A stretch of DNA of 59,276 bases from Candidatus Rifleibacteriota bacterium (GCA_012517355.1 JAAYVD010000169.1:1-59276), one strand, 5' to 3'; shown: positions 2,264 through 59,276, counted from the first letter of the stretch. Made by a program: numbers and translations. Notes: a model not told the origin generated them from the letters alone.

Positions 2264-2352
2264 TCCCGACTGACACGATGCCGGAAGTGCCCCTTTGCCG
2301 CCACGGAGGGCAGCGCGCCACGCCCGTTTCGCGCATCGCAAAGGGGCCATCC
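2264..2352 (-). repeat. Dispersed structured repeat, copy A
   Basis: One of seven related ~90-base elements in this window (others at 5279, 9464, 9612, 12031, 22537, 30641). Read on the minus strand it has a perfect outer stem GCCCCTTTGC/GCAAAGGGGC and ends in the CCGGCATCGTGTCAGTCGGG tail. The inner GCGCG/CGCGC pairing replaces the GCGAAAC/GTTTCGC hairpin found in copy B. It lies in non-coding DNA beyond the end of the leftward gene at 2445. Confidence 0.75.
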
Positions 2353-2384
2353 GGGCAGGCGTCACCAGACTTTCGACCGGAATG

Positions 2385-2413
2385 CGGAACCCCGCCATAC
2401 AGGCGGGGTTCCG
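2385..2413 (-). terminator. Perfect hairpin past the leftward secreted-protein gene
   Basis: A 12-base-pair perfect inverted repeat (CGGAACCCCGCC and its complement) with a 5-base loop lies about 30 bases past the stop codon at 2445. No T-run follows it on the minus strand, so it is a terminator-like or mRNA-stabilising hairpin rather than a textbook intrinsic terminator. Confidence 0.4.
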
Positions 2414-2444
2414 GGAAAATGCCAGGGTCTGGAGAGAGGGTCGG

Positions 2445-3569
2445 TCAGCTCTTGAAGAGAGAGTTGAACCGGCGATCCTGCAGCATGAGGGTCATGATCA
2501 TCGAGGAGAACTGCCACTGCTCCTCCTGGGAGGCGCCCAGGCGGATGTTGTACATGCAGGTCTCTTTCTGCGCGGTGACCTTGTTGGCCTGCAGGGAGAC
2601 GAGGTCCTGATCGGTGAGGTTCTTGCCGGCGTTGGCGGCCAGCCAGGACAGCAGCATCTCCTTCAGGCGGGTGGCGGCGGCGGCGTCCTGGCAGCGGAAG
2701 ATCAGGTTGATGTCGTAGCCGTAGTCGGCCCCCTCGCGGGTGGCGCCGATCTCGTAGGAGAACTTCTGCACCTGGGCCAGGCCGTCCTTCAGGTTCTGCT
2801 CGAGCTTCGCGGCCGCGGCGTCGTCCTGATAGGCCTCGGGGCGGAAGACCTTCTTGAAGGTCTTGCGGGTCTTGCCCACGAACCCCTCGTATTTGTTCTC
2901 GAAGGTGCGGATCTCTTCGCGCTCGGCCTTCAGCGGCACGAACGAGGCCATGAAGGTGGTCTTGTCGGGCTGGATCTTGGACAGCGGCGCGTTGCCGGTC
3001 AGGACGGCGAGGGTCTGCTCGACCAACGAATAGTCGCCGGCGGGCACGGTGGCGATGATCGTGTGCTGACCGGCGTTGACCAGGACGGCCTCGCTGGGCC
3101 GGAAGGCGTAGGGGAAGACGCGGGCAGCCTGGCCGGCGATCTTGACGTCACGCGGGGCTTTCTTCCCCTCGGCGATCTTCTGGGCCTTCAGCGTGTCAAA
3201 GTAGCGCTGGTAGCGTTTCTCGGCGAACTCGACGAAGTTGGGGAAGTTGATGTTGCCCTTCAGGATGAAGCACAGGTTGAGCTGGTCGACGGGCATCTCG
3301 CGCGCCACGATGGCGTAGGACAGGCCTTCCTTGGCGGGGTCGGGAATGCCGGCCTTGCGGAACCGGCGGTCGATGACTTCCTTGCCGATGATCTCGGTCA
3401 GACCCTTCTGGTCGTGGAGTTCCTCTTCGAGGAACTTCGACAGGTCGCCCAGCTCGACGAAGCGCAGATACTTGGGATCGTTGACGATCGCGCAGGGGTC
3501 GGCCCAGGCGGCGGCCAGGCCGCATACGACGAAACAGGAGAGGACCAGGGGCAGGATCACTCGCTTCAT
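2445..3569 (-). CDS. Secreted protein of unknown function, 374 aa
   Basis: I do not recognise the family. The start ATG at 3569 is set by a strong GGAGGA ribosome site 4 bases upstream and is followed by a clear Sec signal peptide (MKRVILPLVLSCFVVCGLAA, cleavage likely after AWA), so the product is exported. The mature part is mixed charged and hydrophobic with no membrane segment and a few cysteines; it includes FVEFAEKRYQRYF and a KTRKTFKKVF basic stretch. It is transcribed divergently from the radical SAM gene at 3660 with 90 bases between them and its own promoter-like sequence. The frame stays open far upstream of 3569, but only as a shadow of the opposite gene. Confidence 0.85.
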   Translation of the reverse strand: MKRVILPLVLSCFVVCGLAAAWADPCAIVNDPKYLRFVELGDLSKFLEEELHDQKGLTEIIGKEVIDRRFRKAGIPDPAKEGLSYAIVAREMPVDQLNLCFILKGNINFPNFVEFAEKRYQRYFDTLKAQKIAEGKKAPRDVKIAGQAARVFPYAFRPSEAVLVNAGQHTIIATVPAGDYSLVEQTLAVLTGNAPLSKIQPDKTTFMASFVPLKAEREEIRTFENKYEGFVGKTRKTFKKVFRPEAYQDDAAAAKLEQNLKDGLAQVQKFSYEIGATREGADYGYDINLIFRCQDAAAATRLKEMLLSWLAANAGKNLTDQDLVSLQANKVTAQKETCMYNIRLGASQEEQWQFSSMIMTLMLQDRRFNSLFKS

Positions 3570-3590
3570 GGTTTCCTCCAACATGCATTC

Positions 3591-3619
3591 TTGAAACCGG
3601 TCGGGAAAAATTCTACCCT
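3591..3619 (+). promoter_or_regulatory. Candidate sigma-70-type promoter for radical SAM gene
   Basis: TTGAAA at 3591-3596, a 17-base spacer, then TACCCT at 3614-3619, 41 bases before the ATG at 3660. It overlaps the -10 of the opposing promoter at 3610-3639, so the two genes may compete for polymerase. Confidence 0.4.
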
Positions 3620-3639
3620 GTCCGGGAGTGAAAACACAA
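3610..3639 (-). promoter_or_regulatory. Candidate promoter for leftward secreted-protein gene
   Basis: On the minus strand TTGTGT (3639-3634), 18 bases, then TAGAAT (3615-3610), about 40 bases before the ATG at 3569. Confidence 0.45.
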
Positions 3640-3659
3640 CCCGCGCCCGAGTACCAGAA

Positions 3660-5000
3660 ATGAAACTCCTGCTGGTCCTGCCCCACGGCCCGATCCATCG
3701 GGCGCGGGCCGGGTCGTACGCCCGGGCCCTGCGCTACGCCCCGCTGACCCTGGCCGCGCTGGTGGCGCTGATTCCGCGCGAACTCGGGTTCCGGGTGCAG
3801 GTCATCGACGAGGGGGTCGACGTCTGGAACCCCGCCGACCACCTCGACGCCGACCTGGTCGCCCTCAGCTGCATGACCGGCACGGCGGGCCGCGCCTATG
3901 CCATGGCCGACTATTTCCGACGGCACGGCAAGCCGGTCATCATGGGGGGGGTCCATCCCACCTTGCGGCCGGCCGAGGCGAAGGAGCACGCCGACTGCGT
4001 GGTGACCGGCCTGGCCGAGGAAAGCTGGCCCCAGGCCCTGCGCGATTTCGTGCAGGGCAGGCTGCAGCCCTTCTACCGCATGCGGCCCGACTTCGACCTG
4101 GGTTCCGTCAAGGCGCCCGCCCCCGACCGCTCGATCTTCGACCGCCGCAAGTACATCACCGTCAACTCGATCGAGGCGACGCGCGGCTGCTTCCACAAGT
4201 GCGCCTTCTGCGCCATCGCCCGCGCCTGGGACAACCGCTACTTCACCCGGCCGGTCGCCGACGTCGTCGAGGAGGCGCGGCGGCTCGAGGGGCCCGAACT
4301 GTGCTTCCTCGACCCCAGCCTCACCTGCGACCGCGAGTTCGCCCTGCAACTGTTCCGGGCGCTGATGCCTCTGGGAAAGTGGTGGGTCGGCTGTGCCACC
4401 ATCGACACCGCGCTCGACGCCGAGCTGTTGCGGGCGATGGCCGAGTCGGGTTGCCGCGGCCTGCTGGTCGGCTTCGAGTCGGTGCGGCAGGAGGGCATCC
4501 AACAGGTGGCCAAGCCCTTCAACAAGGTCGCCGAATACCGCGAAGCGGTGCGCCGGTTCCACGGCTACGGCATCGGCATCCAGGCCTGCTTCGTCTTCGG
4601 CCTCGACACCGACCGGCGCGACGTCTTCCGCCGCACCGCCGAGTTCGCCTACGAGGCCGAGATCGATGTGCCCCAGTTCTCGGTGCTGACCCCCTTCCCC
4701 GGCACCGAAACCTGGCGCCAGCTCGAGAGCGAGGGCCGCATCATCGAGCGCGACTGGTCGCTCTACGACGCCGAGCACGTGGTCTTCCGGCCCCTCCACA
4801 TGACCCCCGACGAGCTGCAGGAGGGCCTGATCTACGCCTGGCGCAAGAGCTACAGCCTGCGCTCGATCTTCAAGCGGCTGGCCGGCTCCCGCTGCCTGCT
4901 GCCCATCTCGATCCCCGCCAACCTCGGCTACCACACCTACGCCGCCCACCTGTCGAAATACTCCCCCGACCTCATGAAACGCGAAGGCGAACAGTGGTGA
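3660..5000 (+). CDS. B12-binding-domain radical SAM protein, 446 aa
   Basis: Class B-type radical SAM protein: an N-terminal cobalamin-binding-like Rossmann domain (residues 1-150, with the usual VIMGGVHPTLRP segment) precedes a radical SAM core. The [4Fe-4S] cysteines are C177, C181 and C184 in RGCFHKCAFCA, the canonical CxxxCxxC spacing. Later motifs (GLLVGFESV near residue 275, PFPGTETW near 345) match the family. Proteins of this kind do methylations, ring rearrangements or lipid-related chemistry; substrate cannot be read here and no partner enzyme is adjacent. The ATG follows no good ribosome site, but the protein begins exactly where the B12 domain should. The open frame extends upstream to about 2295 as an artefact of the opposite gene. 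Confidence 0.85.
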   Translation: MKLLLVLPHGPIHRARAGSYARALRYAPLTLAALVALIPRELGFRVQVIDEGVDVWNPADHLDADLVALSCMTGTAGRAYAMADYFRRHGKPVIMGGVHPTLRPAEAKEHADCVVTGLAEESWPQALRDFVQGRLQPFYRMRPDFDLGSVKAPAPDRSIFDRRKYITVNSIEATRGCFHKCAFCAIARAWDNRYFTRPVADVVEEARRLEGPELCFLDPSLTCDREFALQLFRALMPLGKWWVGCATIDTALDAELLRAMAESGCRGLLVGFESVRQEGIQQVAKPFNKVAEYREAVRRFHGYGIGIQACFVFGLDTDRRDVFRRTAEFAYEAEIDVPQFSVLTPFPGTETWRQLESEGRIIERDWSLYDAEHVVFRPLHMTPDELQEGLIYAWRKSYSLRSIFKRLAGSRCLLPISIPANLGYHTYAAHLSKYSPDLMKREGEQW

Positions 5001-7244: not shown

Positions 7245-7830
7245 ACGGTTGGTTCTTTCTCGGGGAGCCCTCTGGCGAGGGCTGTGCCGAACGCTCCGGC
7301 GAAGGAAGCTACGGTGGAATCTGCCGGTGGAGGCCGCCGTACGGACCGCGGGGGTCCTGTGGGTGAAGCCGCAGCGAACCGGGTGAAATGGCCCGAACCC
7401 GCGGCGATGGAAAGATCATACCACAGAATGGGCTCAGCATCAAGTTCCATGGCGGGCCCAGGATCGACGTGGGTTCTGAGAAGGCCAGAAAGCCGCACCC
7501 CGAAAGGACGGGCAACGGGGTGTGCCCCACTCAGGACAATGGATTGCGGAAAGCCTTCCCGCGGCACATCCGTCCGGCTCTCTCGCCGACCCTGGGTGGG
7601 TTCCCCTCGCGCCAGGTATGATCGGTCATCGGAAGGGCGGCGAACCACTTTCTTCCCCATGACGATCGCCCATCGGAAGGGGCTTCGAACCCCCTTCTTC
7701 CCCATGATCGCGGTGCCGGGCAACGCGAACCATTTCGCCGACGACGTATGGGGTCTTCCTGCCAGGGGGATCATCCGTTACGGCCATCCTGCCGATGGAT
7801 TGTCTGAGACAGATCGGGAAGGATGCGTGC
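7245..7830. other. Divergent intergenic region with imperfect tandem repeat
   Basis: No gene. It separates the leftward helicase from the rightward HD-GYP gene. A hairpin AGCCCTC/GAGGGCT (7266-7283) lies just upstream of the helicase start. At 7629-7716 two imperfect ~44-base tandem units each run GGAAGGG...CGAACC...TTCTTCCCCATGA. No riboswitch consensus (cyclic-di-GMP, cobalamin) was recognisable on either strand. Confidence 0.5.
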
Positions 7831-9324
7831 ATGGCGGAATTGCTGACGCTCGGGGACGTCCAGGTTTTCACGGGGTACAGCCACCTCGGCGGCTGCCGGG
7901 AGTTCGTCTGGGAAGGCGGCGACCAGGCGGAAGGCCAGGGCCGGCCGGCGCGCTTCTGGCTGCGCGGACTGCGGTGCGTCGAGGACCTCGAGGCCCTGAT
8001 GCTCCGCACCGACCTGTATCTGCACACCGCCGACGGCCGGGAATACCTGCTGGCCCATTTCCAGATCACCGACATCACCGACATCGAGAACATCCGCGGC
8101 GTGGCCAGCTCCTGCCGCCTGCTGATGGAGGAGTTCCCCGAGATCAAGGGCCTGAAGGCCGGCGAGAACGTGGTCATCTCGAAGGCCACCCACCTGCAGG
8201 CCTTCCGCACCGTGTCGGCGCTGGTCAGCAGCGCCCATGCCAAGACCCACGTCGATCCCCGCGCCACCAACGAACTGGTCAACGAACTGGTCGGCGAGAT
8301 CATCAAGGCTCCCGACGCCGTGCTGAACCTGCTGGCCATCAAGCACATCGACGACTACACCTTCAGCCACAACATCAACGTCGCCACCCTGTCGATGGTC
8401 ATCGGCCAGGCCCTGGGCCTGACCCGCGACCTCCTGCACGACCTCGGCAGCGGCGCCATCCTGCACGACCTCGGCCTCCTGCGCGTCCCCGGCCGCATCC
8501 TGCACAAGGAGGGCAAGCTGACGCCCGAGGAGTTCACCGAGGTCACCCGCCATCCCCGCCTCGGCCTCGACCTGATCGGCTCCTCGCGCGATCTCAGCCC
8601 GCGCGCCCGCGAGGTGATCCTGCAACACCACGAACGCTTCGCGGGGAAAGGATACCCGCACGGCCAGAGCGGCCAGAACATTCCGCTGCTGGCGCGCATC
8701 TGCGCCGTGGCCGACGCCTTCGACGCGCTCACCTCCGACCGCCCCTTCCGGCCTGCCCTCACCCCCTACCAGGCGATGCGCACCATGCTCGGCATGGCCG
8801 GCACCCATTTCGACCCCGAGATCCTCCAGGCCTTCCTGCACAAGCTGTCGGTCTACCCGCCCGGCACCACCGTCACCCTCAACGACGGCACCGCCGCCGT
8901 CGTCCTGCGCGGCAACGCCGGCCTGCTGCTGCGGCCGGTGGTCCGGCGCCTGCAGCCGGCGGCGGGCCAGCCCGAGGTGGTCGACCTGGCCCGGGCCCCC
9001 GCCCTGTTCATCACCGGCCTGGCCGGGCCGGCCACACCGGAACCCGCGCCCGCCGCCGAACCCGCCCCGGTCACCGTGTCCCGCCCGGCAACCCCCGCCA
9101 GGCCGCCCGAGAAGGGGAAGACCCCGACCGTGCGGGGCAACCCGGTCGCCGCCCCTCCCCGCCCCGCGCCCGCCCCCACCTCGTTCCCCCCCGGCCACCG
9201 GCCCGGCACCCGCACCCCCGGCCTGCCCGGCGCGACACCCGCCCCCCGGCAGCCTGCTCCGGCAGCCAAACCCGGCGGCCAGGGCCCCCAAACCCCCACC
9301 CCTGGCGGCAAGAAGCAGACCTGA
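7831..9324 (+). CDS. HD-GYP domain protein (probable cyclic-di-GMP phosphodiesterase), 497 aa
   Basis: HD-GYP proteins hydrolyse cyclic-di-GMP, switching cells between attached and motile states. The catalytic domain spans about residues 170-345: HD at 212-213 (ILHDLG), HHERFAGKGYP at 266-276 with an intact GYP, and AVADAFDALTSDRPFRPA. The N-terminal 160 residues are an unrecognised domain rather than a receiver. A ~120-residue Pro/Ala-rich tail ends the protein. I chose the ATG at 7831 because GGGAAGGA precedes it; an in-frame ATG at 7795 has no ribosome site. It stands alone on its strand. A second messenger enzyme fits a genome with pseudopilin operons and a PilT ATPase, but the link is inference. 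Confidence 0.92.
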   Translation: MAELLTLGDVQVFTGYSHLGGCREFVWEGGDQAEGQGRPARFWLRGLRCVEDLEALMLRTDLYLHTADGREYLLAHFQITDITDIENIRGVASSCRLLMEEFPEIKGLKAGENVVISKATHLQAFRTVSALVSSAHAKTHVDPRATNELVNELVGEIIKAPDAVLNLLAIKHIDDYTFSHNINVATLSMVIGQALGLTRDLLHDLGSGAILHDLGLLRVPGRILHKEGKLTPEEFTEVTRHPRLGLDLIGSSRDLSPRAREVILQHHERFAGKGYPHGQSGQNIPLLARICAVADAFDALTSDRPFRPALTPYQAMRTMLGMAGTHFDPEILQAFLHKLSVYPPGTTVTLNDGTAAVVLRGNAGLLLRPVVRRLQPAAGQPEVVDLARAPALFITGLAGPATPEPAPAAEPAPVTVSRPATPARPPEKGKTPTVRGNPVAAPPRPAPAPTSFPPGHRPGTRTPGLPGATPAPRQPAPAAKPGGQGPQTPTPGGKKQT

Positions 9325-9463
9325 CCTTCCCGACCGGCACGGGCCGGTGAAGCCCGGCCAGGCAGCCGCCACCTCCCCGCCTTCACCCTGCCTTCACCCC
9401 GCCTTCCTCCGCCCCGCCGCCTTTCCGGGTCTGCCCGCCAGACCTCCGGTCAGGCTGGCCTGG

Positions 9464-9500
9464 GCAGACCGCGAAATGGGCGTTTCGTGCCGCCATCGGC
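9464..9500 (+). repeat. Dispersed structured repeat, copy E (fragment)
   Basis: Partial copy: only the GCGAAAT...GCGTTTCGTGCCGCCATCGG core matches; the flanking stems are lost. It lies in the 9325-9699 gap between the converging HD-GYP and dockerin genes. The gap holds no gene, only this fragment, copy C and a short ACCGGC/GCCGGT hairpin near 9331. Confidence 0.5.
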
Positions 9501-9611
9501 TGGGCTGGGGGCAGCCCTGCCGACCTTCCTGGCCACCGCGGCTGACGGGGCAGCCACGAGGGGCTGCCCAACGGGAAGGATCAGCGGCGACGGGAGACCG
9601 CCCCGCTGGGA

Positions 9612-9702
9612 AGACCCCTTGGCGGTACGCGAAACTGGCGTTTCGCCCCGCCCTCCGTGCCGGCAAAGAGAAAGGGGATCCGACGCCGTGTCGTTCGGGT
9701 CA
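9612..9702 (+). repeat. Dispersed structured repeat, copy C, reaching a stop codon
   Basis: Full-length copy with hairpin GCGAAAC-TGGC-GTTTCGC and tail CGCCGTGTCGTTCGGGTCA. Its last bases include the stop codon (TCA, 9700-9702) of the leftward dockerin gene, so the element marks the 3' boundary of that gene. Confidence 0.75.
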
Positions 9703-11811
9703 GTCGCGGGGCGGAAACCCGTCCAATGGTTCTCCGTCGGCCGGAGATGTTGCGGTCGGGGTCGCCGGCTGCTCCAGAGCCCCCGGACCGTGGTCAAAAT
9801 GGAACTGGCCGGCGGGGCTCGCCGCGGCGGGGTCGGACGTATCGGCATCGGCTGGGTCCGCATCGGCCGGTTCGGCGTCAACCGTTGCCGGTCCGGCGCC
9901 AACCGTGACGGGTTTGGTGCCGGCCGGGGCGGGTTCCGTGTCCTCGCCATCGACCGGTCCACGGATCAAGGCGATCAGGTCGTTCATATCCTGCAGGTCC
10001 ACCTCGCCGTCCCCGTTCAGGTCGCCACCCGGCAGGGTGCCGGCGGCGCGGTCCGGGCGGGTCAGGAATTCGGCCAGCACGCAGAGGTCCGCCGGCTCGA
10101 CCTTGCCATCGCCATTGAGATCCCCGGCCAGGGGTTTGGCGGATGATCCCGCCGCCGCGGGCCGATCGGGCACCGGCGGATCGGTCTCGCCGAGCCACTT
10201 GTCCAGGCTGGCCAGGAACTCCCGGTGATGGGCGGTCAGCTGGTCGTGGGCCTTTTTCATGCGGGCGAGCAGGTCGATGATCTCGCGGGACTGCTGCGGG
10301 GTCAGGTTCTTCTTCCTCCCCTTGTCGGCCCACTGCTGGAGGTGCTCGGCATACATCTTCTGAAACGCCGCGTAGATGGCCCGCTTCTCCAGTTCCAGTT
10401 TTCCCAGTTGCCGCATCAGTTCCTGCCGTGTGGCGGGCCCCTGCCCCTTTCCGAAAGCCACCACCAGGTCGTTCATCTTTTTGACCAGGGCATCGGCCTG
10501 GGAAAACATGGTGGTGCTCTTGCGGTAGAAGTCGCAGGCGGCCTGGAAGTTCGAGGCGTCGACCGGTACGACGGGAAGCGAGGGCGGCGAGCCGGGGCCG
10601 GCCGCGGGGGGTTCCCCCGGCGGGGCTTCCCCGCCCGACAGATCGGGGGAGGCGATGATGACCTCCAGCGGTCCGAATGCCAGCCGGGCCCCCTGGTCCT
10701 GGCCGAACTGCCCGGCCCCTTTCGTCGAAGAATAGAACCGATAGCCGTCGATCGGGCCGGGAAGACGGGCCGTGTTGCCCTGCCGGCTGGCGTTGGCCAG
10801 GAAGAGGAACTGGCCCTTCGCGGTTTTCGCGACAAGGCCCAGGATTGGCTTGGCATTGGATTCGTTCTGGAAGAAGGGGTTGTCCCAGGGATCCCCGTTC
10901 TGGGGAATGGCCATCGGCCAGATGAGGGTGTGCTCCTGGAGCAGGAGTTCGTTGAACGCCGCGGTGATCTTCATCTCGGCCGCCGAGGCCCCGCGGGTTC
11001 CGTGCAAAAACAGCCGCAACGGCAGCCGTTTCTTCTGCTGGGCCACGTTGCTGATGGCGGCGCCGGCCAGGGCGCCGGCCAGGCTGACGCAGCGCAGGGC
11101 CGCCTGGGAACTCGATCCCTGCCAGTGGAAGCACAGGGCCCCGCCGGCGGGGGCATCGACCTTGATCCCGGACGTCCCCTTGATGTCGGCGACGGCGTCG
11201 AACATCGTGTCGAACACGGTCTTGCAGCCGCCGAAGACCTCGTCCCCCAGCTTGTCGGCCACGAGCCCCCACATGTAGGCACCCATGGCTTTGACGTCGT
11301 AGGAATGGAAGATGTCGCGGGCCCGGCCGCGGTCCCACCACTCCCCCCCGTCGACGAGCAGGAGCGCCTGGGGGAAGGCCTCCTTCAACCGGCCGAGAGA
11401 CGCGGGATCGCAGCCGTCGGCGGCGATGTCCACCACGACCTTGCCGGCGTGCTTGGCGTAGTAGGCGGCCAGGATGGCCTGGGCATCGCCCGTGCCCCGC
11501 ACCCGGAACCACCAGCCGAACTTGCGTTCCTGGCATTTTTGGAAGGCGGCGGTGCCGAGCAGCGCCGGCAAAGGATCCTTGACCGCCAGCCAGGCCCGTC
11601 CGTTGGGGAAGAGCGCCTCGATGGTCTGCTCGGACAGGGTCTGCCCGTTCCCCACCTCGATGCCCACGGCCAACGTCACGGGCCCGAAGCTCCCGTTCGA
11701 CGCGATGGTCACGTTGGCGGCCAGGAGAGTGCCGGTCATGGTCCACACGGCCAGACAGACCAGGGCCAGGCAAAGCCGGTCAGAAGGCCGGGATGGATGG
11801 CAACCGATCAT
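9700..11811 (-). CDS. Secreted protein with C-terminal dockerin repeats, 703 aa
   Basis: Start ATG at 11811 has AAGGGGG 8 bases upstream and is followed by a long-n-region signal peptide ending near LLAAN. Residues 30-430 form an unrecognised domain (motifs WWFRVRG, VVVDIAADGCDP, LLLVDGGEWWD). A helical, coiled-coil-like stretch follows (about 450-545). Residues about 560-625 hold two dockerin-type calcium loops, GDLNGDGKV and GDLNGDGEV, 33 residues apart, each followed by a helix (LCVLAEFL, MNDLIALI). Dockerins dock proteins onto cohesin modules or scaffolds, though lone dockerins outside cellulosomes are common. A Pro/Ala/Asp-rich tail of ~80 residues follows the dockerin, which is unusual since dockerins are commonly terminal. 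No cohesin is seen in the window. Function unknown. Confidence 0.85.
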   Translation of the reverse strand: MIGCHPSRPSDRLCLALVCLAVWTMTGTLLAANVTIASNGSFGPVTLAVGIEVGNGQTLSEQTIEALFPNGRAWLAVKDPLPALLGTAAFQKCQERKFGWWFRVRGTGDAQAILAAYYAKHAGKVVVDIAADGCDPASLGRLKEAFPQALLLVDGGEWWDRGRARDIFHSYDVKAMGAYMWGLVADKLGDEVFGGCKTVFDTMFDAVADIKGTSGIKVDAPAGGALCFHWQGSSSQAALRCVSLAGALAGAAISNVAQQKKRLPLRLFLHGTRGASAAEMKITAAFNELLLQEHTLIWPMAIPQNGDPWDNPFFQNESNAKPILGLVAKTAKGQFLFLANASRQGNTARLPGPIDGYRFYSSTKGAGQFGQDQGARLAFGPLEVIIASPDLSGGEAPPGEPPAAGPGSPPSLPVVPVDASNFQAACDFYRKSTTMFSQADALVKKMNDLVVAFGKGQGPATRQELMRQLGKLELEKRAIYAAFQKMYAEHLQQWADKGRKKNLTPQQSREIIDLLARMKKAHDQLTAHHREFLASLDKWLGETDPPVPDRPAAAGSSAKPLAGDLNGDGKVEPADLCVLAEFLTRPDRAAGTLPGGDLNGDGEVDLQDMNDLIALIRGPVDGEDTEPAPAGTKPVTVGAGPATVDAEPADADPADADTSDPAAASPAGQFHFDHGPGALEQPATPTATSPADGEPLDGFPPRD

Positions 11812-40065: not shown

Positions 40066-40437
40066 TCAGACCTTGAGGGCCTCTTCCAGGTAGGCCCGCA
40101 GTTTTTCTTCCTCGATGGGCTTGAACACGACGCGGGGGTAGCCGAGTTCCTCGAATTCGCGTTTCTTGGCGTTGGTCATGGCTGAAATCACGATGACCGG
40201 AATGCTCGAAAGAACCGGGTGGGTCTTGATCTTCTGCAGCATCGAAAAGCCGTCGAGCTTGGGCATCTCGAAATCCGTGAGGATGAGATCGACTCGATCC
40301 TTTTCCAGGATCGCCAGGGCTTCCTCGCCATTGACCGCGGTGAGAATCTGGAATTCCTTTCCCTCCATCTTCAGAAGGTAGCCCTTCACGATATTCCTCA
40401 CCGTCAACGAATCGTCCACGATCAGCACTCTGGGCAT
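40066..40437 (-). CDS. Single-domain CheY-like response regulator, 123 aa
   Basis: A lone receiver domain: acidic pair D8-D9, phosphoacceptor D55 (LILTDFEMPKLDG), the switch Ser/Thr in VIVISAMT, and K106 in VVFKPIE. AAGGAGG precedes the ATG at 40437. No DNA-binding or enzyme domain is attached, so output is by protein contact, as for CheY. It is divergent from the chemosensory operon across 190 bases with back-to-back promoters, and is therefore its likely phosphotransfer output. Confidence 0.93.
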   Translation of the reverse strand: MPRVLIVDDSLTVRNIVKGYLLKMEGKEFQILTAVNGEEALAILEKDRVDLILTDFEMPKLDGFSMLQKIKTHPVLSSIPVIVISAMTNAKKREFEELGYPRVVFKPIEEEKLRAYLEEALKV

Positions 40438-40515
40438 GCGTTCCTCCTTGGATCTCTCGCGACTCTCACGCGCCTCTTCCGCGGCTTGGCCGGGGGAGAT
40501 GGCATCGCCGAGGGG

Positions 40516-40544
40516 AGGATACCGCGTCCGGCCGGGACCGTCAA
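40516..40544 (-). promoter_or_regulatory. Promoter of the CheY-like gene
   Basis: Minus strand TTGACG (40544-40539), 17 bases, TATCCT (40521-40516), 78 bases before the ATG at 40437. Confidence 0.6.
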
Positions 40545-40556
40545 CCCGGAAAACCC

Positions 40557-40575
40557 TGTTCCCATGCGGAGAACA
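40557..40575. promoter_or_regulatory. Candidate operator between divergent promoters
   Basis: Inverted repeat TGTTC-N9-GAACA, directly upstream of the -35 of the chemosensory operon and 12 bases upstream of the -35 of the CheY-like gene, a place where one regulator could act on both. Confidence 0.35.
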
Positions 40576-40604
40576 TTGACAGATCCCCGGGGAGATGGTA
40601 GCGT
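40576..40604 (+). promoter_or_regulatory. Promoter of the chemosensory operon
   Basis: Perfect -35 TTGACA (40576-40581), 17 bases, TAGCGT (40599-40604), 23 bases before the ATG of cheA, so the leader is very short. Confidence 0.6.
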
Positions 40605-40627
40605 TTGGGATCCGACAGCGGGGGAGA

Positions 40628-43423
40628 ATGGCATTGGCCCTGCTTTTTTCCGAGAGCGAACGAGGGGAACTCCTGCAGGGTTTTCTGGCCGAATCCATCG
40701 AGCACCTCGAGGGCATCGAGCACGTCCTTCTGCAGATCGAATCGGCCTCTGCCGAGAACCGGGACGAGCTGACCAACCAAGTTTTCCGGGCCGCCCATTC
40801 CATCAAGGGCGGCAGCGCCATGCTCGGACTCACCACCATCCAGGCCCTGGCCCACAAAACGGAATCGGTGCTCGATTTCCTGCGTTCGGGAACCCTGACC
40901 CCGAACTCCGACCTGATCGACCTCCTGCTGCGGAGTTTCGATACGTTGCGGCACCTGATCGACCATTCCCAGCACAGCGACACGACCGACATCTCGGCCA
41001 ACCTGGCCAGCCTGGAGGCGGTCATCGCCCGGGCGCAACAGGAGACGACGCCGGAAGGACCTTCTTCCGGGTCCCAGGGCCCCGGCCAGGTGACGACCGA
41101 ACCGGGCGAGCCGCTCCCCGAAAAGGCGGAACCCACCTTGCGCGTCCGGGTCCGGTTGCTCGAGGACCTGATGAACCTGGCCGGGGAGCTGGTCCTGAGC
41201 CGGAACCAGTTGCGTGAGGCCCTGGGCCGCAGCGACCTGCGGGCCATCCGGATCAGCGGCCAGCGGATGGGCCAGGTGACGACCGAACTCCAGGAAACCA
41301 TCATGATGACGCGGTTGCAGCCCCTCGACCGCGTGTTTTCCAAATTCCCCCGCATGATCCGGGACCTCTCCAAACAGTTGTCCAAGGACATCCAGGTGTC
41401 CATCGAAGGCCGGGAGGTCGAACTGGACAAGACCCTGATCGAGGGCCTGGGGGATCCGCTGACCCACATGGTCCGCAACGCCGCCGACCACGGGGTGGAA
41501 AGCCCCGAGGAACGGACCCGCCTGGGCAAGCGCAACCCCGCCCGCGTGCGCCTGCAGGCCTATTACGAGGCGGGCCAGGTGGTCATCGAGGTGGCCGACG
41601 ACGGCCGGGGGATCGACGGGGAGAAGGTCGCCCAGAAAGCCCTCGCGCGCGGGCTGGTGTCCCCCGACAAGGCCCGCAAACTATCGATGAAGGAAAAGCA
41701 GGCGCTCATCTTCCTGCCCGGCCTGTCCACCGCGGAAACGGTCACCGACCTGTCGGGGCGCGGGGTCGGGATGGACGTCGTGAAGACCAACATCGACCGG
41801 CTGGGCGGCAAGGTGGAGATCGATTCCGAGCCCGGGAAGGGCACTTCCTTCCGGGTCAAGCTGCCGCTGACCCTGGCCATCATCCCCTCCCTGATCCTGT
41901 CCACCTGCGGCGAGATCTTCGCCATCCCCCAGGTGAACGTCCTGGAGATGCTGATGGTCCCCGCGGAACAGGTGAAGCGCCGCATCGAGGTGATCGACCG
42001 CCAGGAGGTCCTGGTCCTGCGTGGCAAGCTCCTGCCCCTGGTTTCCCTGAACGAATTCCTGGGAGCCACCCACACCTTCGTCCACCCTCTCACCCAGGAG
42101 GAGCAGACCGACCGCCGGCACCGCTTGGCCGACCGGCGCTCGACCCACCATGACCGCCCCCTGGCCGGCCTGCCCGCCACCCCCGCCCACGCCGCGGAAC
42201 ACCCCCGCACCGACGGCCGCCGCCACCGGGCTTGCAGCAATCTCAACATCGTCATCGCCACCACCGGGAACTTCTCCTTCGGCATCGTGGTGGACAAGCT
42301 CCTGTTCACCGAAGAGATCGTGGTGAAACAACTTGGCCGTGACCTGAAAGGCCTCCCCGAGTATTCCGGGGCGACGATCATGGGGGATGGCCGGATCGCC
42401 CTGATCATCGATGTCCTGGGCCTGGCCACCCGGGCCAATCTTCTCGGACAGGCCCAGGCCCTGTCCCAGGAAGCGGCCGAACCCGTGCGCTGCGCCAAGA
42501 GCGACGGCGAGACGGTGCCCTTCCTCGCCTTCCAGTACGGTGGTCCCGAAACCCTCGTCCTTCCCCTGTACATGGTCACCCGCCTGGAAAAGATCCGGCC
42601 CGGGGACATCGGGGAATGCGGCGGCTGGAAGGCCATCCCCTACGGGGATCACATGCTCCCGGTGTTTCTGTTGAGCGACATCGGCCGGATCCCGCCTCTC
42701 CGTCCCGATCAGGAACGGGGGGTCATCGTCCTCCGCGTCCGCGGACGGGAAGTCGGGCTGGTGGCGGCCCTCCCCATCCAGGTGCTCCAGATCAGGCCCG
42801 ATTTCGATGGAACCGTGCTCCGGCAACCGGGCATTGCCGGGTCCCGCGTCTGGAACCAGAAGACGGTCATGCTGGTGGATATCTGGGAGATCCTGGAAAC
42901 CCAGCATCCCGAGCTGCTGGAGATCGGACACCAGTCCCCCCTGCGGCGCCCGGACGTTCCCCAGATCGTGGTCCTGGAGCCCGTAACCTTCTTCCAGCGG
43001 CAACTGCGCCTGCAGCTCGAAAGCCAGGGATTCCAGGTCACCGTGGCCACCTCCTGGCCCGAGGTGGAAAACCACTTCGCCGTTCCCCAGGCCCGGTGCC
43101 GGGCCCTCCTGGCCGACGTCACCCTCCTCCAGCAGGACCGGTATGCCGGCCTGCGCCACTTCCGGAGCACCCACCTGCCGGCGGGCTTGCCCATCGTCGG
43201 ACTCCGCCAGAACGAGCCGATCCTTCCCGAAGAACTGGCCGCCGAGGGAGTCGGCGAGGTATTCCAGAAACTCGACCACCAGCCCCTGGCGGTCTGGATC
43301 GATGCATTGAGGACCGGGACCGGGGTTGCCAACGCCGCCGCCGACAGCGGTGGCTGGCAAGCCTCTTCCTGCCCCTGGCCCCCAGCGGCGCCACCGCCCT
43401 CTTCCCCGAACGGGCGGGTTTGA
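40628..43423 (+). CDS. cheA: CheA-type hybrid histidine kinase with C-terminal receiver-like domain, 931 aa
   Basis: Core kinase of the chemosensory operon. Order: HPt with phospho-accepting H57 ([14 protein letters not shown]), linker, dimerisation helices ([19 protein letters not shown]), HATPase with N-box [21 protein letters not shown] and [10 protein letters not shown], then a CheW-like region, a second CheW-like region ([20 protein letters not shown]), and a receiver-like end ([20 protein letters not shown]) with Asp in LLADVTLL but a weakened acidic pocket. The first CheW-like region is interrupted by ~55 His/Arg-rich residues (nt 42090-42240). No P2-type CheY-binding domain is obvious. 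GGGGGAG lies just before the ATG. The next gene begins 25 bases downstream. Confidence 0.93.
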
Positions 43424-43448
43424 AATTCTCTGCCACGGAGACCGAATC

Positions 43449-46253
43449 ATGTTGCGTCCACTGCCCAAAGTCATCGAGGTCGTCAAGGACAAGTGCGTCA
43501 ACTGCCACGCCTGCATCGCCGCCTGCCCGGTGAAATTCTGCAATGATGGCCACGGTGACACGGTCGAGATCAACTCCGACTTGTGCATCGGCTGCGGTCA
43601 GTGTCTGCGGGCCTGCACCCACCAGGCCCGCCTCCCCGTGGACGACACCAAGGCCTTTGTCGAAGCCCTGGCCCGCCGGGAGCCGATGATCGCCGTCGTG
43701 GCGCCGGCGGTGGCGGTTTCTTTTCCCAATGAGTATCTGCGCCTGAACGGCTGGCTGAAATCGGCGGGCGTCGTGGCGTCCTTCGACGTCAGTTTCGGGG
43801 CGGAACTGACCATCCGGTCCTACCTGGAACACGTCAAGACCAACACCCCCGAACTGGTGATCGCCCAACCCTGCCCCGTCCTGGTCAACTACGCCGAGAT
43901 CTACCACCCGGAACTCATCCCCTATCTGGCGCCCGCCGACAGCCCGATGCTGCACACCATCAAGATGATCCGGGAATTCTGGCCCAAGTACGCCGGCCAC
44001 AGGATCGCCGTCCTGTCCCCCTGCATCGCCAAGAAGCGGGAGTTCTTCCAGACCGGGCTGGGCGATTTCAATGTCACGATGACCAACCTGAAGGAGCATT
44101 TCGACTCCGCCAACATCCGCCTGGCCACCTTCCCCGAAGTCGATTACGACAATCCCCCGGCCGAGCGGGCGGTCCTGTTCTCGACCCCGGGCGGGCTGCT
44201 GCGGACCGCGGAACGCTGGAATCCCGGGATCCGCGACCTGACCCGCAAGATCGAAGGCCCGCACGTGATCTTCCATTACCTCGACCACCTGGACCGCCTG
44301 CGCCGGGAGAAGAAGACCCCCTTGCTGGTGGACTGCCTGAATTGCGACCTGGGGTGCAACGGCGGGACGGGCACCGACGCCAAGGACCACTCCCCCGATG
44401 AGGTGGAACGCCTCGTCGAGGAGCGGAACCAGGTGATGCAGAAGCGCCACCGCCGGTGGGGCCCGTTTTCCGACTACCGCACCCGGAATGCCCTGGAACG
44501 ACTGGTCGACCGGTATTGGAAACCCCGGCTGTATGGCCGCCAGTATGAAAACCGGTCCCAGAGCAATCTCATCCGGATCCCCTCCGAGGCCGAATTCAAA
44601 CGGATCTACGAACAGATGGAGAAGTTCGAGGAAAAGGACCATTACAACTGCAACTCCTGCGGCTACGGCACCTGTGAACGCATGGCGATCGCCATCCACA
44701 ACCAGCTCAACCGCCCGGAGAACTGCCACCACTTCCTGCTGAACCGGTCGGAACGGGCCCGCCAGGAGGTGGATGAACTGACCCGGACGTCGGATCTGGT
44801 GTTCCGGTACCAGAGCGGGGAACTGGCGAAGCTCGCCGCGTGTCTCCAGACGCTGGCCAACGGCCATATCGACTGGAAATGGGAGGTGGATGCTCCGGAA
44901 CAAGCCACCCAGGCCGTCCATGGCCTGTTCCAGCAGATCTTCCAGAACCTGGAACTCGTCCGGGGTTCCCTCCAGAACCTGCTCACCGACAGCCACACCC
45001 TGACCGACGCCGCCCTCGCCGGGAAACTGTCCACCCGGGCCGACGCCAGTCGCAACCAGGGGGAGTTCGCCCATCTCGTCCAGGGCATGAACAACATCCT
45101 GGAAGCCGTGACCCGGCCCCTGGTCGTCGCTTCCGGATTCATCGAGCGTCTGAGCCGCGGGGAGATCCCGCCCCGGATCACCGAAGAGTACCGCGGGGAG
45201 TTCAACCTCCTGATCGGCAGCCTCAACCGGCTGGTGGAATCCCTGGAAGGGGTGACGGTGGTGGCCCAGCGCGTGGCCGAAGGCGACCTCCAAATCGAGG
45301 TCCGGGAACGCTCCGACCAGGACCGCCTGATGCAGGCGCTGGGGCGGATGGTGAAGCAGGTGGGGCAGATGTTCCGCGAAGTCACCACCGGGATCGCCAC
45401 CCTGGCGTCCTCCTCGACCGAACTGTCGGCCATTTCCGAACAACTGGCCGCCAGCACCAAGGGCTCTTCCGACCGCTCGACCACCGTGGCCGCGGCCGTC
45501 GAGCAGATGAGTTCCAACACCGTCTCGGTGGCCACCAGCATGGAACAGACCACCATGAATCTCACCTCGGTCGCGACCGCCACCGAGGAGATGAGCGCCA
45601 CCATCAGCGAGATCGCCTCCAATTCCGAAAAGGCCCGCCGCATCAGCGCCAGCGCCAGCCAGCAGGCCAACAGCGTGTCCGAGATCATCCGGGCCATGGA
45701 GAAGTCGGCCCAGGAGATCGGCCAGGTCACCGAAACCATCACCAGCATTTCCTCGCAGACCAACCTCCTGGCCCTGAATGCCACCATCGAGGCGGCCCGG
45801 GCCGGGGTGGCGGGCAAGGGGTTCGCCGTGGTCGCCAACGAGGTCAAGGAGCTGGCCCAGCAGACCTCGACGGCCACGATCGACATCCGCAAGAAGATCG
45901 CCGGGATCCAGGATGTCACCGTCAATGCCATCGGAGACATCGAGAGCATCGGCAAGATCATCAAGGAGGTCAGCGACATCATCGCCGCCATCGCCAGCGG
46001 CATCGAACAGCAGGCCAGCGTCACCAAGAGCATCTCCGGCCACATCGCGGAAGCCTCGCAAGGGGTCCGGGAGGTGAACCGACGGATGGCCGAGATCGCC
46101 ACCAGCACCCAGGAGGTCTCCAAGGATGTGATGGCCGTGAACCGCGTGCACGGCGAAGTCACCAGTTCCAGCCACCAGGTCTTCGCCAGCGCCCGCCAGT
46201 TGTCCGAACTGGCCGAGCAGTTGCGGGGAATGGTGGGGAAATTCAAGATCTGA
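43449..46253 (+). CDS. [FeFe]-hydrogenase-like sensor fused to a methyl-accepting chemotaxis domain, 934 aa
   Basis: Order: two [4Fe-4S] ferredoxin motifs (C16, C19, C22, C26P and [11 protein letters not shown]), an [FeFe]-hydrogenase H-cluster domain, a further Fe-S module (C401, C404, C409, C426), HAMP-like helices (about 480-640) and a methyl-accepting signalling region with the hairpin tip [20 protein letters not shown]-cluster ligands are present: C142 (AQPCPV), C192 ([10 protein letters not shown]), C299 and C303 (NCDLGCNGG). In the first motif the usual TSCCP has become AQPCP, so the proton-relay cysteine is Pro141, as expected of a sensor rather than an efficient enzyme. No signal peptide or membrane helix: a soluble receptor. 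This matches the HydDB group C2 (chemotactic sensory) idea. GGAG precedes the ATG; cheW follows after 10 bases. Confidence 0.93.
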
Positions 46254-46263
46254 GGCCAGTTGC

Positions 46264-46749
46264 ATGGAACTGTCCAGCGACCTGCTGGTCACCGAGAACC
46301 AGCTGATCGTCCTCTGCGGGTGCTGCGGCAACCTGTTCGGGATCCATACGGAGCCGATCCAGGAGGTCCTGGCCATTCCCGAGGTCCGGCCCGTCCACCA
46401 CGCCCCTCCCTTCGTCCGCGGCGTCTTCAACCTGCGGGGGCGGGTGGTCGTCCTCATCGATCCGGCCGTGAAGATGGGCGCGCCCCCGCAGGAACTGACC
46501 CCCGAATCCCGGATCCTGGTCGTCCACTCGAAGGACGAACTCATCGGCCTGTTGGTCAGCACCCTGCTCGGAGTGGTCCCCTTCGCCTCGGGCCAGGCCA
46601 CCCCCAATCCGGAAAACCTGGAGGAGGGCTTCCGCAAGGTCATCTCCAGCTTCCTCCTCCTCGATGGGAAGATGGTGGGCCTCCTCAAGATCGACACCCT
46701 TCTCGGCGAGAACGATGAACTGGCCCACGACGGCGGAGGGGAAGCGTGA
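46264..46749 (+). CDS. cheW: CheW coupling protein, 161 aa
   Basis: Single CheW domain: IVLCGCCGNLFGIHTEPIQE, FVRGVFNLRGRVVVLIDPAV with the conserved NLRG core, and the second subdomain SKDELIGLLVSTLLGVVP. CheW bridges receptor tips and CheA. Its position directly after the receptor gene argues that it serves this receptor. The stop codon overlaps the GTG start of cheB. Confidence 0.92.
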   Translation: MELSSDLLVTENQLIVLCGCCGNLFGIHTEPIQEVLAIPEVRPVHHAPPFVRGVFNLRGRVVVLIDPAVKMGAPPQELTPESRILVVHSKDELIGLLVSTLLGVVPFASGQATPNPENLEEGFRKVISSFLLLDGKMVGLLKIDTLLGENDELAHDGGGEA

Positions 46750-47936
46750 CCGACCGCCGGATCCGGATCCTCATCGTCGACGATTCCCTGGTCTTCCGGA
46801 AGATCCTGTTGGATGTCCTGCAGGACATGACCGAGGTGGAAGTGGTCGGGCAGGCCCCCAACGGCCGGATCGCGCTCCAGAAGATCCCGCAACTCAACCC
46901 CGACCTGCTCCTCCTCGACGTGGAGATGCCGGAAATGGGGGGGCTCGAGCTCCTGGAGGAGATGAAGGCCCGGGGCCTCGGAACCGGTGTCATCATGATG
47001 AGCGGATCCTCCCCCGCCACCGGCTCCAAGACCATGGAAGCCCTGACCGCCGGGGCATTCGAATTCTTCCCCAAACCGGAACGGGAAACCATCGAGGAAA
47101 CCCGCTCCGAGCTGGAACCCGTGTTGAGAATGGCCGTCCAGGCCTTCCAGGAGCGGACCGCCATCCGCCGGGTGCTGGCCGGGCAGCGGGAACCCCGGGC
47201 ACCCACCCCCGCCGCTCCATCCCCCCGCCCCCCCAGCGAGCCCGTCGGGCCGCCCCCGCCCCCGAAAAACCCCTGGCTCCCTTCGACCCGCGCCGACCTC
47301 GTGATCATCGGCATCTCCACCGGGGGTCCACCCGCCCTGCTGGAGACGTTTTCCCGCCTCTCCCAGCCGCTCGGGGTGCCGGTCCTGGTGGTCCAGCACA
47401 TTCCGCCCCAGTTCTCGGAAGCCCTGGCCACCCGCATCCGGGAGAAATCCGGAGTATGGGTGGAAGAAGCCCGGCATGGCCAGACCCTGGAAGCCGGGAA
47501 GACCTATCTCGCTCCGGGGGGCTTCCACATGCGGCTTTCCCGGCCGCCGGGCCGTCCCGGATACGTCGTCCACCTGACCGAAGACCCCCCGGAGAACGGC
47601 TGCCGGCCATCCGTGGACTATCTCCTCCGGTCGGTGACCCAGAATTTTCCCGGACGGGTCGCGTTGGTGATCATGACCGGGATGGGGATCGACGGTCTCG
47701 CCGGGGCCCGGCTGATCCGGGCCGCCGGAGGATACGTCATCGCCCAGAATGCCGAGACCTGCACGGTGTATGGCATGTCGCGGGCCGTCATCGAGGCGGG
47801 GCTCGCCAACGAAGTCCTGTCCCTGGAGGAGATTCCGGCCGCCATGGAACGGCTCACCGGTGGCATCGGCCCGGTGCGCAGCCCCTCCGGCCGATTCTGG
47901 GCCATCCCTCCCGCCGGCGGAGAGAAATCCGGGTGA
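46746..47936 (+). CDS. cheB: CheB protein-glutamate methylesterase, 396 aa
   Basis: Receiver domain (D12-D13, phospho-acceptor D58, K110), a Pro-rich linker (150-175), then the methylesterase with catalytic Ser191 (GISTGGP), His218 (VVQHIPPQF) and Asp316 (MTGMGIDG). Removes methyl groups from receptor glutamates to reset sensitivity. GTG start overlapping the cheW stop codon by GTGA. Confidence 0.95.
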   Translation: MTDRRIRILIVDDSLVFRKILLDVLQDMTEVEVVGQAPNGRIALQKIPQLNPDLLLLDVEMPEMGGLELLEEMKARGLGTGVIMMSGSSPATGSKTMEALTAGAFEFFPKPERETIEETRSELEPVLRMAVQAFQERTAIRRVLAGQREPRAPTPAAPSPRPPSEPVGPPPPPKNPWLPSTRADLVIIGISTGGPPALLETFSRLSQPLGVPVLVVQHIPPQFSEALATRIREKSGVWVEEARHGQTLEAGKTYLAPGGFHMRLSRPPGRPGYVVHLTEDPPENGCRPSVDYLLRSVTQNFPGRVALVIMTGMGIDGLAGARLIRAAGGYVIAQNAETCTVYGMSRAVIEAGLANEVLSLEEIPAAMERLTGGIGPVRSPSGRFWAIPPAGGEKSG

Positions 47937-48769
47937 AGAAACTCGACCCCAACGAACTCGCGTTGTGGATCAGACTGGTGCTCGATCTGACGGGCATCAG
48001 CCTCGACGAGACCAAGGAATACCTGATCCTGGAACGATTGCGGGACCTCCTGGAAAAGTATCGCTGCGCCTCCTTCGGCCACTTGTACTTCCTGGCCCGC
48101 GAAGAGAGGCAGACCGCCCTGCGGGAGGATCTCATCGACCGCATCACCACCCAGGAGACCTCCTTTTTCCGCAACGCGGCCCCCTTTGCCGCGCTCCGCG
48201 AGACCATCCTGCCGGAGCTGCTCGGGCGGTGCCGGAAAGATGGGGGGAAACGGCCGTTGACGATCTGGTGCGCCGCCTGCGCGACCGGGCAGGAAGTCTA
48301 CAGTCTCGCCATCCTCCTGCACGAGCTCGGCGCCAAGCCCCAGGAATACCGGATCACCGGCACCGACATCTCGCGCCGGGCTCTCGAAGGGGCCAGGATC
48401 GGGAGATACAACCGGGTGGAAATGGACCGGGGAATCACCCCCCCCCAACGGACCCGGTTTTTCGAACCTCACCGCGAGCAATGGCAGGTCCGCGATTTCC
48501 TGAAGACCTCCCTGGACTTCGTCCAGTTGGCGCTGCACCAGCCATTCCACCTGGGGGACCAGTTCGACCTGGTCCTGTGCCGCAACGTGGCCATCTACTT
48601 TCCGGAGACGACCCGGGGGCATCTGTTCCACCGGATCGCCCACCACCTGCGTCCGGAGGGGTATCTCCTGCTGGGCACCACGGAGAGCATCCCTTCCATG
48701 GGGAACCTGTTCCAGTCGACCCAGGTGGGAAAGGCGGTGGCCTTCCTTTTGAACCCCGGGGCCAGATAG
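47933..48769 (+). CDS. cheR: CheR receptor methyltransferase, 278 aa
   Basis: Motifs of the SAM-dependent receptor methyltransferase: TGISLDETKEYLILERL, TTQETSFFRN, WCAACATGQEVYSLA (SAM loop) and FDLVLCRNVAIYF. Start is GTG, overlapping the cheB stop by GTGA. No pentapeptide-tether or TPR tail. With CheB it should let this soluble receptor adapt. Confidence 0.95.
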   Translation: MKKLDPNELALWIRLVLDLTGISLDETKEYLILERLRDLLEKYRCASFGHLYFLAREERQTALREDLIDRITTQETSFFRNAAPFAALRETILPELLGRCRKDGGKRPLTIWCAACATGQEVYSLAILLHELGAKPQEYRITGTDISRRALEGARIGRYNRVEMDRGITPPQRTRFFEPHREQWQVRDFLKTSLDFVQLALHQPFHLGDQFDLVLCRNVAIYFPETTRGHLFHRIAHHLRPEGYLLLGTTESIPSMGNLFQSTQVGKAVAFLLNPGAR

Positions 48770-58013: not shown

Positions 58014-59276
58014 TCACTTCGGCTTGTACTGTTCGAACGCCTTCTTGTCGAAGGCCCGCCGGTAGGCGTCCTCGGGGGCGATCCGCCGCGATTTCACCAG
58101 GTCCATCAGAGACTGGTCCATGGTCTGCATGCCAATCTGCTTGCTGGTCTGCATGATCGAGGGCAGCTGGAAGGTCTTGTTTTCACGGATGAGGTTGGCC
58201 ACGGCCGGGGTGTTGACCAGGATCTCGAGGGCGCAGACCCGGCTCATGCCGTCCATGGTCGGGATCAGCTGCTGGGCGATGATGCCCTGCAGGGCATCGG
58301 CCAGCTGGGTGCGGATCTGGTCCTGCTGGTGGGCGGGGAAGACGTCGACGATACGATCGACCGACTGGGCGGCGGACGGGGTGTGCAGGGTGGCGAACAC
58401 GAGGTGGCCGGTCTCGGCGGCGGTGACGGCCAGCGAGATGGTTTCGTAATCGCGCATTTCGCCGACCAGGATGATGTCGGGGTCTTCGCGCAGGGCCGAC
58501 CGGAGGGCGGCGGCGAACGACTTGGTATTGGGGCCGATCTCGCGCTGGTTGACGATGCAGGACTTGTGGCTGTGGACGAACTCGATGGGGTCCTCGATGG
58601 TCAGGATGTGGTCCTGGCGCTCCCCGTTGATCATGTCGACCATGGCGGCCAGGGTCGTCGATTTGCCGGAGCCGGTTGGCCCGGTGACCAGCACCAGGCC
58701 CTTATTGCGCCGCGACAGTTCGGTCAGCACGGGAGGCAGCTTGAGTTCGGCCAGGGTCTTGATGCGGGCCGGGATGACCCGGAAGACGGCCCCGATGCCG
58801 AGGCGGTTGTTGAACACGTTGCAGCGGAACCGCGAGACGTCGGGGATCTCGTAGGAGATGTCGAGCTCGAGGTCGCGCTCGAAGCGGTCGCGTTGGTCGT
58901 TGGAAATGAACTGGAAGATGAGGCGCTTGGTGTCCTTCGGCTGCAGGGCGGGCAGGTCGGTCGGCCAGAGTTTTCCCTGCAGGCGCATCATCGGCGGAGT
59001 GCCGACGGTCAGATGCAGGTCGGAACCGCCCTTTTCGACGACCAGGGTCAGCAGGTCGTTGATGCCGATCTCGTCGTTCTCGTTCTTGGCTGCGGCGGGC
59101 CGGCCACCCATGGTGGGGGCGGCGGCGCGTGGGGCGGCGGCCGGCGCGGCATGCGGCTGGGGAATGCCACCGGTGAACTGCGGCGGGGCCCCGGGATGCC
59201 CGCCGGGGGCCGGCTGGGGGCGCGGGGCCTGCGGGATGCCCGTGGAGGCGGGAGGCCGGGGAACCCCGCCGGCGGG
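58014..59276 (-). CDS. pilT: PilT-type twitching ATPase, 5' end beyond the window
   Basis: Retraction ATPase of type IV pili. Walker A GPTGSGKST, Asp box (TIEDPIEFVHSH), Walker B DPDIILVGEMRD, His box THLVFATLHT-type (HLVFATLHTPSAAQSVDRI) and the PilT C-terminal signature NLIRENKTFQLPSIMQTSK, with AHQQ before the C-terminus. An ATG at 59111 begins the known N-domain, but the frame stays open to the window edge as 55 Pro/Ala/Gly-rich codons (GIPQ repeats), so the gene may carry an N-terminal extension and start outside the window. It ends GTGA-overlapping the lipase GTG candidate. Confidence 0.92.
   Translation of the reverse strand, partial: PAGGVPRPPASTGIPQAPRPQPAPGGHPGAPPQFTGGIPQPHAAPAAAPRAAAPTMGGRPAAAKNENDEIGINDLLTLVVEKGGSDLHLTVGTPPMMRLQGKLWPTDLPALQPKDTKRLIFQFISNDQRDRFERDLELDISYEIPDVSRFRCNVFNNRLGIGAVFRVIPARIKTLAELKLPPVLTELSRRNKGLVLVTGPTGSGKSTTLAAMVDMINGERQDHILTIEDPIEFVHSHKSCIVNQREIGPNTKSFAAALRSALREDPDIILVGEMRDYETISLAVTAAETGHLVFATLHTPSAAQSVDRIVDVFPAHQQDQIRTQLADALQGIIAQQLIPTMDGMSRVCALEILVNTPAVANLIRENKTFQLPSIMQTSKQIGMQTMDQSLMDLVKSRRIAPEDAYRRAFDKKAFEQYKPK

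Follow-up and report, generated by a model that had tools for sequence, protein, structure and literature searches.

The locus analyzed here raises the question of whether a soluble chemoreceptor with a hydrogenase-type sensor works within a chemosensory pathway of its own and, if so, what that pathway senses and what it controls. The window, by which we mean the whole stretch of 59,276 nucleotides analyzed, carries between 40066 and 48769 the plus-strand gene order cheA-receptor-cheW-cheB-cheR together with a cheY-like gene that is divergent from cheA (Table 1). We consider it probable that this operon constitutes a second, separate pathway of a flagellated species of the uncultured phylum Riflebacteria and that its only receptor is an intracellular sensor of H2 or of redox state.

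Table 1. Genes of the operon and parts of the receptor, with positions counted from the first nucleotide of the window
Feature	Position	Strand	Size and supporting matches
CheY-like single-domain response regulator	40066..40437	-	123 aa; PF00072, 79.4 bits
CheA	40595..43423	+	Pfam: Hpt, H-kinase_dim, HATPase_c, three CheW stretches
Soluble hydrogenase-type chemoreceptor	43449..46253	+	934 aa; Pfam
Receptor: two ferredoxin-type [4Fe-4S] sites, Cys16/19/22/26 and Cys46/49/52/56	43494..43616	+	Fer4 matches
Receptor: H-cluster domain	43683..44369	+	PF02906 (Fe_hyd_lg_C), 94.5 bits; motif alignment; model
Receptor: C-terminal FeS domain, Cys401/404/409/426	44649..44726	+	PF04060, 21.8 bits (cut-off 23)
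Receptor: HAMP array	44826..45488	+	HAMP_2, 80.4 bits, residues 537-600; other HAMP-like repeats by eye
Receptor: MCP signaling domain	45627..46145	+	PF00015 (MCPsignal), 105 bits
CheW	46264..46749	+	PF01584, 89.7 bits
CheB, receiver and methylesterase	46746..47936	+	PF01339, 194 bits; PF00072, 78.8 bits
CheR	47933..48769	+	PF01739, 160.7 bits

The complete operon and the divergent single-domain CheY that a preliminary description of this DNA had reported were recovered by Pfam where it had placed them, and the scores of all six genes were far above the cut-offs, except for that of the receptor's C-terminal FeS domain. The cheW/cheB and cheB/cheR pairs overlap by 4 bases each, whereas 25 bases separate the receptor gene, and 10 bases cheW, from the stop codon that precedes it. 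The receptor start is the ATG at 43449, with GGAG upstream, and the divergent cheY starts at the ATG at 40437 with the ribosome site AAGGAGG, which corrects an earlier reading; the start codon of cheA is ambiguous (40595, 40628, or 40634). As expected of a chemosensory system, CheA, CheW, an MCP, CheB, and CheR were all found with their key catalytic residues. CheA keeps the Hpt His of P1 and intact N, G1, and G2 boxes in P4, and P3 and P5 are present. Its translation also contains one more CheW-like region and, at the C terminus, a degenerate receiver-like region from which the acidic pair has been lost, and its linker is short and lacks the P2-like domain found in the CheA of relatives. The acidic pair, phospho-Asp, and Lys are all present in the divergent CheY. 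An Rfam search of the whole window gave no match, and scans of the region for sigma-70 promoters and terminators returned no more than they did in shuffled sequence.

The preliminary description had also taken the receptor to be soluble, with a ferredoxin-fed sensor resembling an H-cluster domain, and the Fer4 and Fe_hyd_lg_C matches and the low hydropathy agree with this reading. No transmembrane segment was detected in the receptor by 19-residue hydropathy, for which the peak value was 1.26 versus 2.3 to 2.8 for four other MCPs encoded in this genome. An AlphaFold model of residues 1-452 (pLDDT 93.1) was compared with known structures by Foldseek, and the best matches were [FeFe]-hydrogenases, among them CbA5H (E value of 2.8e-19; TM-score of 0.64 by query length; identity of only 22%). 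When the H-domain was aligned to solved enzymes, L1 was found to be AQPCP, with Cys142 and with Pro at the equivalent of C299; L2 contained Cys192 and Lys195, with Ser at the equivalent of M353; and L3 contained Cys299 and Cys303, with Leu at the equivalent of M497. Cys142, Cys192, Cys299, and Cys303 align with the cubane ligands of the solved enzymes and were invariant in all 36 sequences of an alignment composed of the window sensor and 35 relatives from named genomes, as were the eight Cys of the ferredoxin sites and four Cys of the C-terminal cluster, and Lys195 was kept in at least 90% of them. The C-terminal FeS domain scored just below its cut-off, but all four of its Cys are invariant in the relatives. 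The pocket motifs AQPCP, DSPM, SPC.AKK/R.EF, and DCLNC..GCN were strongly conserved across several phyla. Alteration of C299, M353, and M497 together with a C-terminal [4Fe-4S] domain is the pattern of sensory groups C and D, and the presence of an MCP output in the same polypeptide as the H-domain is that of HydDB group C2. The NCBIfam Aer2 model matches receptor residues 592-891. Two extra Cys lie outside the set of known cluster ligands: Cys31 (window 43539-43541), invariant in 36 of 36 sequences, and Cys296 (window 44334-44336), which is beside L3 and kept in at least 90% of the 36.

The genome examined (7.1 Mb in 184 contigs, 96% complete) encodes HydG (454 bits), HydF (546 bits), and HydE (381 bits), each over its curated cut-off. 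The preliminary description had named the maturases as one check on its proposal and a genome without HydEFG as evidence against it, and that objection falls away. Six Fe_hyd_lg_C genes are present, the receptor included; the receptor sensor has the lowest Pfam score among them, and at least two of the other five are group A6-like. One group A6-like hydrogenase is adjoined by a sensory HydS linked to a histidine kinase (Fe_hyd_lg_C, FeS, HisKA, and HATPase_c; the two adjacent genes lie at L032:6570-8654 and 8658-10388), which is a putative second H2 sensor of the same genome.

Related genomes had also been suggested as a place to look for the gene order, and cheA-receptor-cheW-cheB-cheR was indeed found in three relatives, G022 (whose contig corresponds to Ca. 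Rifleibacterium amylolyticum), G023, and G026. The order is not a product of chance, because it recurs in these relatives with a receptor that is 72 to 74% identical to that of the window; the G023 receptor reads in two frames. Occurrence within the phylum is patchy, with strong receptor orthologues in 4 of 40 genomes and none in the two other genomes of the same genus. In the three relatives, the operon is preceded by a flagellar-type cheY and a CheX-like gene, the latter matching CheX in G026 and being conserved in G022 and G023, and their CheA frames of 1051 to 1055 aa contain the P2-like domain. The window operon lacks CheX, the relatives' CheY, and the P2-like domain of CheA. The only close match in this genome to the relatives' operon CheY is the CheY of its flagellar locus (58% identical). 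Compared with the operon CheYs, the divergent CheY scores only about 30 bits, so that by its sequence it is not the conserved partner of the operon. Comparison of the DNA flanking the operon in the window and in the relatives revealed no common gene apart from the che set. In one fragmented draft (G027 C590, L113:1825-4525), CheA is followed at once by CheB and CheR, and the receptor and CheW are absent, which reflects either a deletion or a misassembly.

The preliminary description had left the output open and had considered twitching, since no flagellar gene lies in the window. This did not hold for the genome, in which a flagellar locus includes a CheY of its own and part of a CheA. FlhA is present (TIGR01398, 897 bits), and contig C113 carries, in order, the flagellar CheY, FlhA, FlhF/FleN-like genes, and a CheA truncated by the contig end. 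What remains of this CheA is 311 codons, with the P1 and P2 regions and a break in a proline-rich linker (L114:12026-12958, G000 C113), and it shares 68% identity with the beginning of the intact CheA that occupies this position in G024; G016, a genome of the same genus, is broken in the same flagellar cheA. The window operon is a second chemosensory pathway of this genome, and the host cell very likely swims. The idea that the window CheA is the only one in the genome was rejected, as the second is cut at the end of C113 by an assembly gap. CheA counts in draft genomes of this group are unreliable. The genome contains 12 PilT-family matches, the best being a PilT-type ATPase at window 58014-59111 (T2SSE, 164 bits).

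We then compared signaling domains. Aligned with the four other MCPs of the genome, the window MCP has arms that are each one heptad (seven residues) shorter, a count that is relative to these MCPs and assigns no absolute heptad class. In E. coli, a difference of a single heptad suffices to keep arrays apart (Herrera Seitz 2014, as summarized in PMC7534058). The same type of CheA (63 to 64% over the kinase core) is found in two further genomes (G010 and G012; L110 and L112), where CheW, CheB, and CheR are likewise nearby but the linked receptors are membrane proteins without a hydrogenase sensor. Of the three receptors there, one has Cache sensors and one has a four-helix bundle. Their signaling domains align to the window receptor with no gaps in the arms. 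Taken together, these alignments support insulation of the pathway from the other MCPs. Because the same CheA type is linked to transmembrane receptors of equal arm length, they also suggest that a hydrogenase sensor was swapped into an existing, insulated pathway. A fuller version of this history, to which we give slightly less than an even chance, is that of an insulated H2 phosphorelay in which a hydrogenase replaced a membrane sensor, signals pass only through the pathway's own CheA and CheW in a separate cytoplasmic array, and the output was rewired after CheX, CheY, and the P2-like domain had been lost.

A scan of named genomes gave 56 related loci, mostly in Treponema and other Spirochaetes and also in Planctomycetota, Fibrobacterota, Bacteroidota, Chlorobiota, and Goldiibacteriota. 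Among the 34 loci flanked by 4 kb or more on each side, CheA was linked in three (Rifleibacterium, SZUA-567, and Chitinispirillum); a fourth CheA-linked locus, in a Spirochaetales bin with a shorter flank on one side, falls outside the 34. The sensors of the orphan receptors of Treponema and other Spirochaetes are mostly 47 to 57% identical to that of the window and have the same Cys pattern, but the Treponema proteins have no CheA in the flanks examined, are mostly 630 to 750 aa long, and have a distant MCP domain that matches the one of the window receptor at about 30 to 60 bits. In a phylogenetic tree, the Riflebacteria receptors formed one clade (100/100) inside the Hyd-MCP group, apart from the histidine kinase-linked HydS of the same genome and phylum, with the order within the group poorly resolved. 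The Hyd-MCP clade also contains hybrid-kinase and SpoIIE-phosphatase fusions. A protein of Planctomycetota joins a sensor of this clade to a PAS-GAF hybrid histidine kinase with Hpt (L081:9920-13969), and in a protein of Chlorobiota the sensor is joined to PAS-SpoIIE (L057:447-3455), which with the MCP makes three output types.

HydDB lists [FeFe] group C2 as "Chemotactic (putative)", with its role undetermined there (PMC5037454). The preliminary description had held that the concept was known from sequence, and both this entry and the wide occurrence of Hyd-MCP receptors confirm it. The window receptor shares with C2 a sensory-type H-domain and a methyl-accepting output, and its sequence supports a C2-like assignment. 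C2 is a putative class only, whereas the window receptor is encoded within a complete operon of che genes, includes a HAMP array, and is matched to its CheA and CheW and in arm length. Group C sensory hydrogenases are described as having PAS after the C-terminal cluster (PMC13104023), but PAS is not listed in the C2 criterion (PMC5037454). Pfam gave no PAS match in the window receptor; within its clade, PAS is present in L081 and L057. TmHydS shares the altered second-sphere residues, the N-terminal clusters, and the C-terminal [4Fe-4S] domain with the window sensor but has a PAS domain and no MCP output, and TamHydS has the same layout of N-terminal and C-terminal clusters. Aer2-type receptors are likewise soluble, with HAMP units between the sensor and the MCP tip. 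Aer2 senses O2 through a PAS-heme and has no H-cluster. In a study of Fibrobacteres, sensory hydrogenases were proposed to orient termite-gut bacteria in H2 gradients (PMC4704652). No experimentally studied Hyd-MCP was found in the literature searched, beyond the reach of which lay, for example, papers on termite-gut treponemes. The kind of receptor is thus known from sequence, and what the present analysis adds is a complete, conserved, and apparently insulated pathway together with evidence for sensor exchange and rewiring of the output.

In the route that we infer, from cofactor loading and H2 as the signal through the direction of its effect to the array and the output, HydE, HydF, and HydG of the genome would load the apo-receptor with an H-cluster, and H2, or electrons arriving by way of the two ferredoxin-type clusters, would shift the state of that cluster. 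A conformational change would then run from the C-terminal FeS domain through the HAMP array to the MCP tip and alter CheA autophosphorylation, with CheB and CheR resetting the receptor. We favor a conformational over a wire-like route to the HAMPs because the C-terminal cluster of TamHydS is not reduced by H2, and signaling is thought to be independent of its redox state (PMC13104023). Since the arms of the other MCPs are longer by one heptad, the receptor would occupy a separate cytoplasmic array with CheA and CheW. From CheA, phosphate would pass to a CheY-type protein, either the divergent or the flagellar CheY, and the most probable output would be flagellar motor bias, with type IV pili or some other process being less likely. 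Counting against this best explanation are the absence from the window operon of the CheX, CheY, and P2-like domain kept by relatives and the patchy occurrence of the receptor. Sensory [FeFe]-hydrogenases have so far been studied as isolated enzymes, with unclear signaling targets (PMC10055695, PMC13104023). Since one operon here encodes the sensor, kinase, coupling protein, and adaptation enzymes, H2-dependent control of the kinase could be rebuilt from five proteins, and the system could show whether bacteria of anoxic habitats steer by hydrogen.

Three other explanations were weighed. The H-domain may hold only iron-sulfur clusters and no [2Fe] site, making the receptor a general cytoplasmic redox (or O2 or NO) sensor, which we regard as unlikely. 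Sensory hydrogenases have Pro at the C299 equivalent in about 10% of cases and Ser at the M353 equivalent in about 32%, and all three second-sphere substitutions of the window sensor are of the kind listed for sensory enzymes (PMC10055695). The C299P and M497L equivalents nevertheless favor a sensor with clusters only, and the latter counts against the H-cluster reading, since a CpI variant with the same M497L change failed to integrate the [2Fe] site properly, although sensory enzymes vary at that position (PMC10055695). The presence of HydEFG could also be explained by the five other Fe_hyd_lg_C genes. On the other side, the pocket motifs are conserved over several phyla beyond the needs of a plain cubane scaffold, and the [2Fe] site is still taken up by TmHydS, in which the three positions are Ala, Gly, and Ser (PMC10055695).

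The pathway could instead control a non-motility output such as type IV pili, gene expression, or c-di-GMP, like alternative chemosensory systems, a possibility that we rate as rather doubtful. It gains from the separate flagellar che set elsewhere in the genome, from the absence of the relatives' flagellar-type CheY and CheX from the window operon, and from the PilT-family matches, one of them inside the window; but CheX and the flagellar-type CheY in the relatives' operons point to the motor, and no gene common to the flanks of the window and relatives' operons indicates another target. It is very improbable that the receptor is simply an additional member of the flagellar array, with the adjoining Che proteins secondary. 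The Treponema relatives, as orphan receptors that probably use the main array of the cell, would fit such a role, but the one-heptad difference from the four other MCPs, the identity in arm length with receptors that accompany this CheA type elsewhere, and the fact that in four genomes the receptor gene is embedded between cheA and cheW all argue for a separate pathway.

Elsewhere in the genome, an MCP with a C-terminal PilZ domain (L040:7059-8789, G000 C95) is a possible link between c-di-GMP and a chemoreceptor. The window also encodes a B12-binding radical SAM protein at 2295-5000 and an HD_5 (HD-GYP-like) domain protein at 7795-9324.
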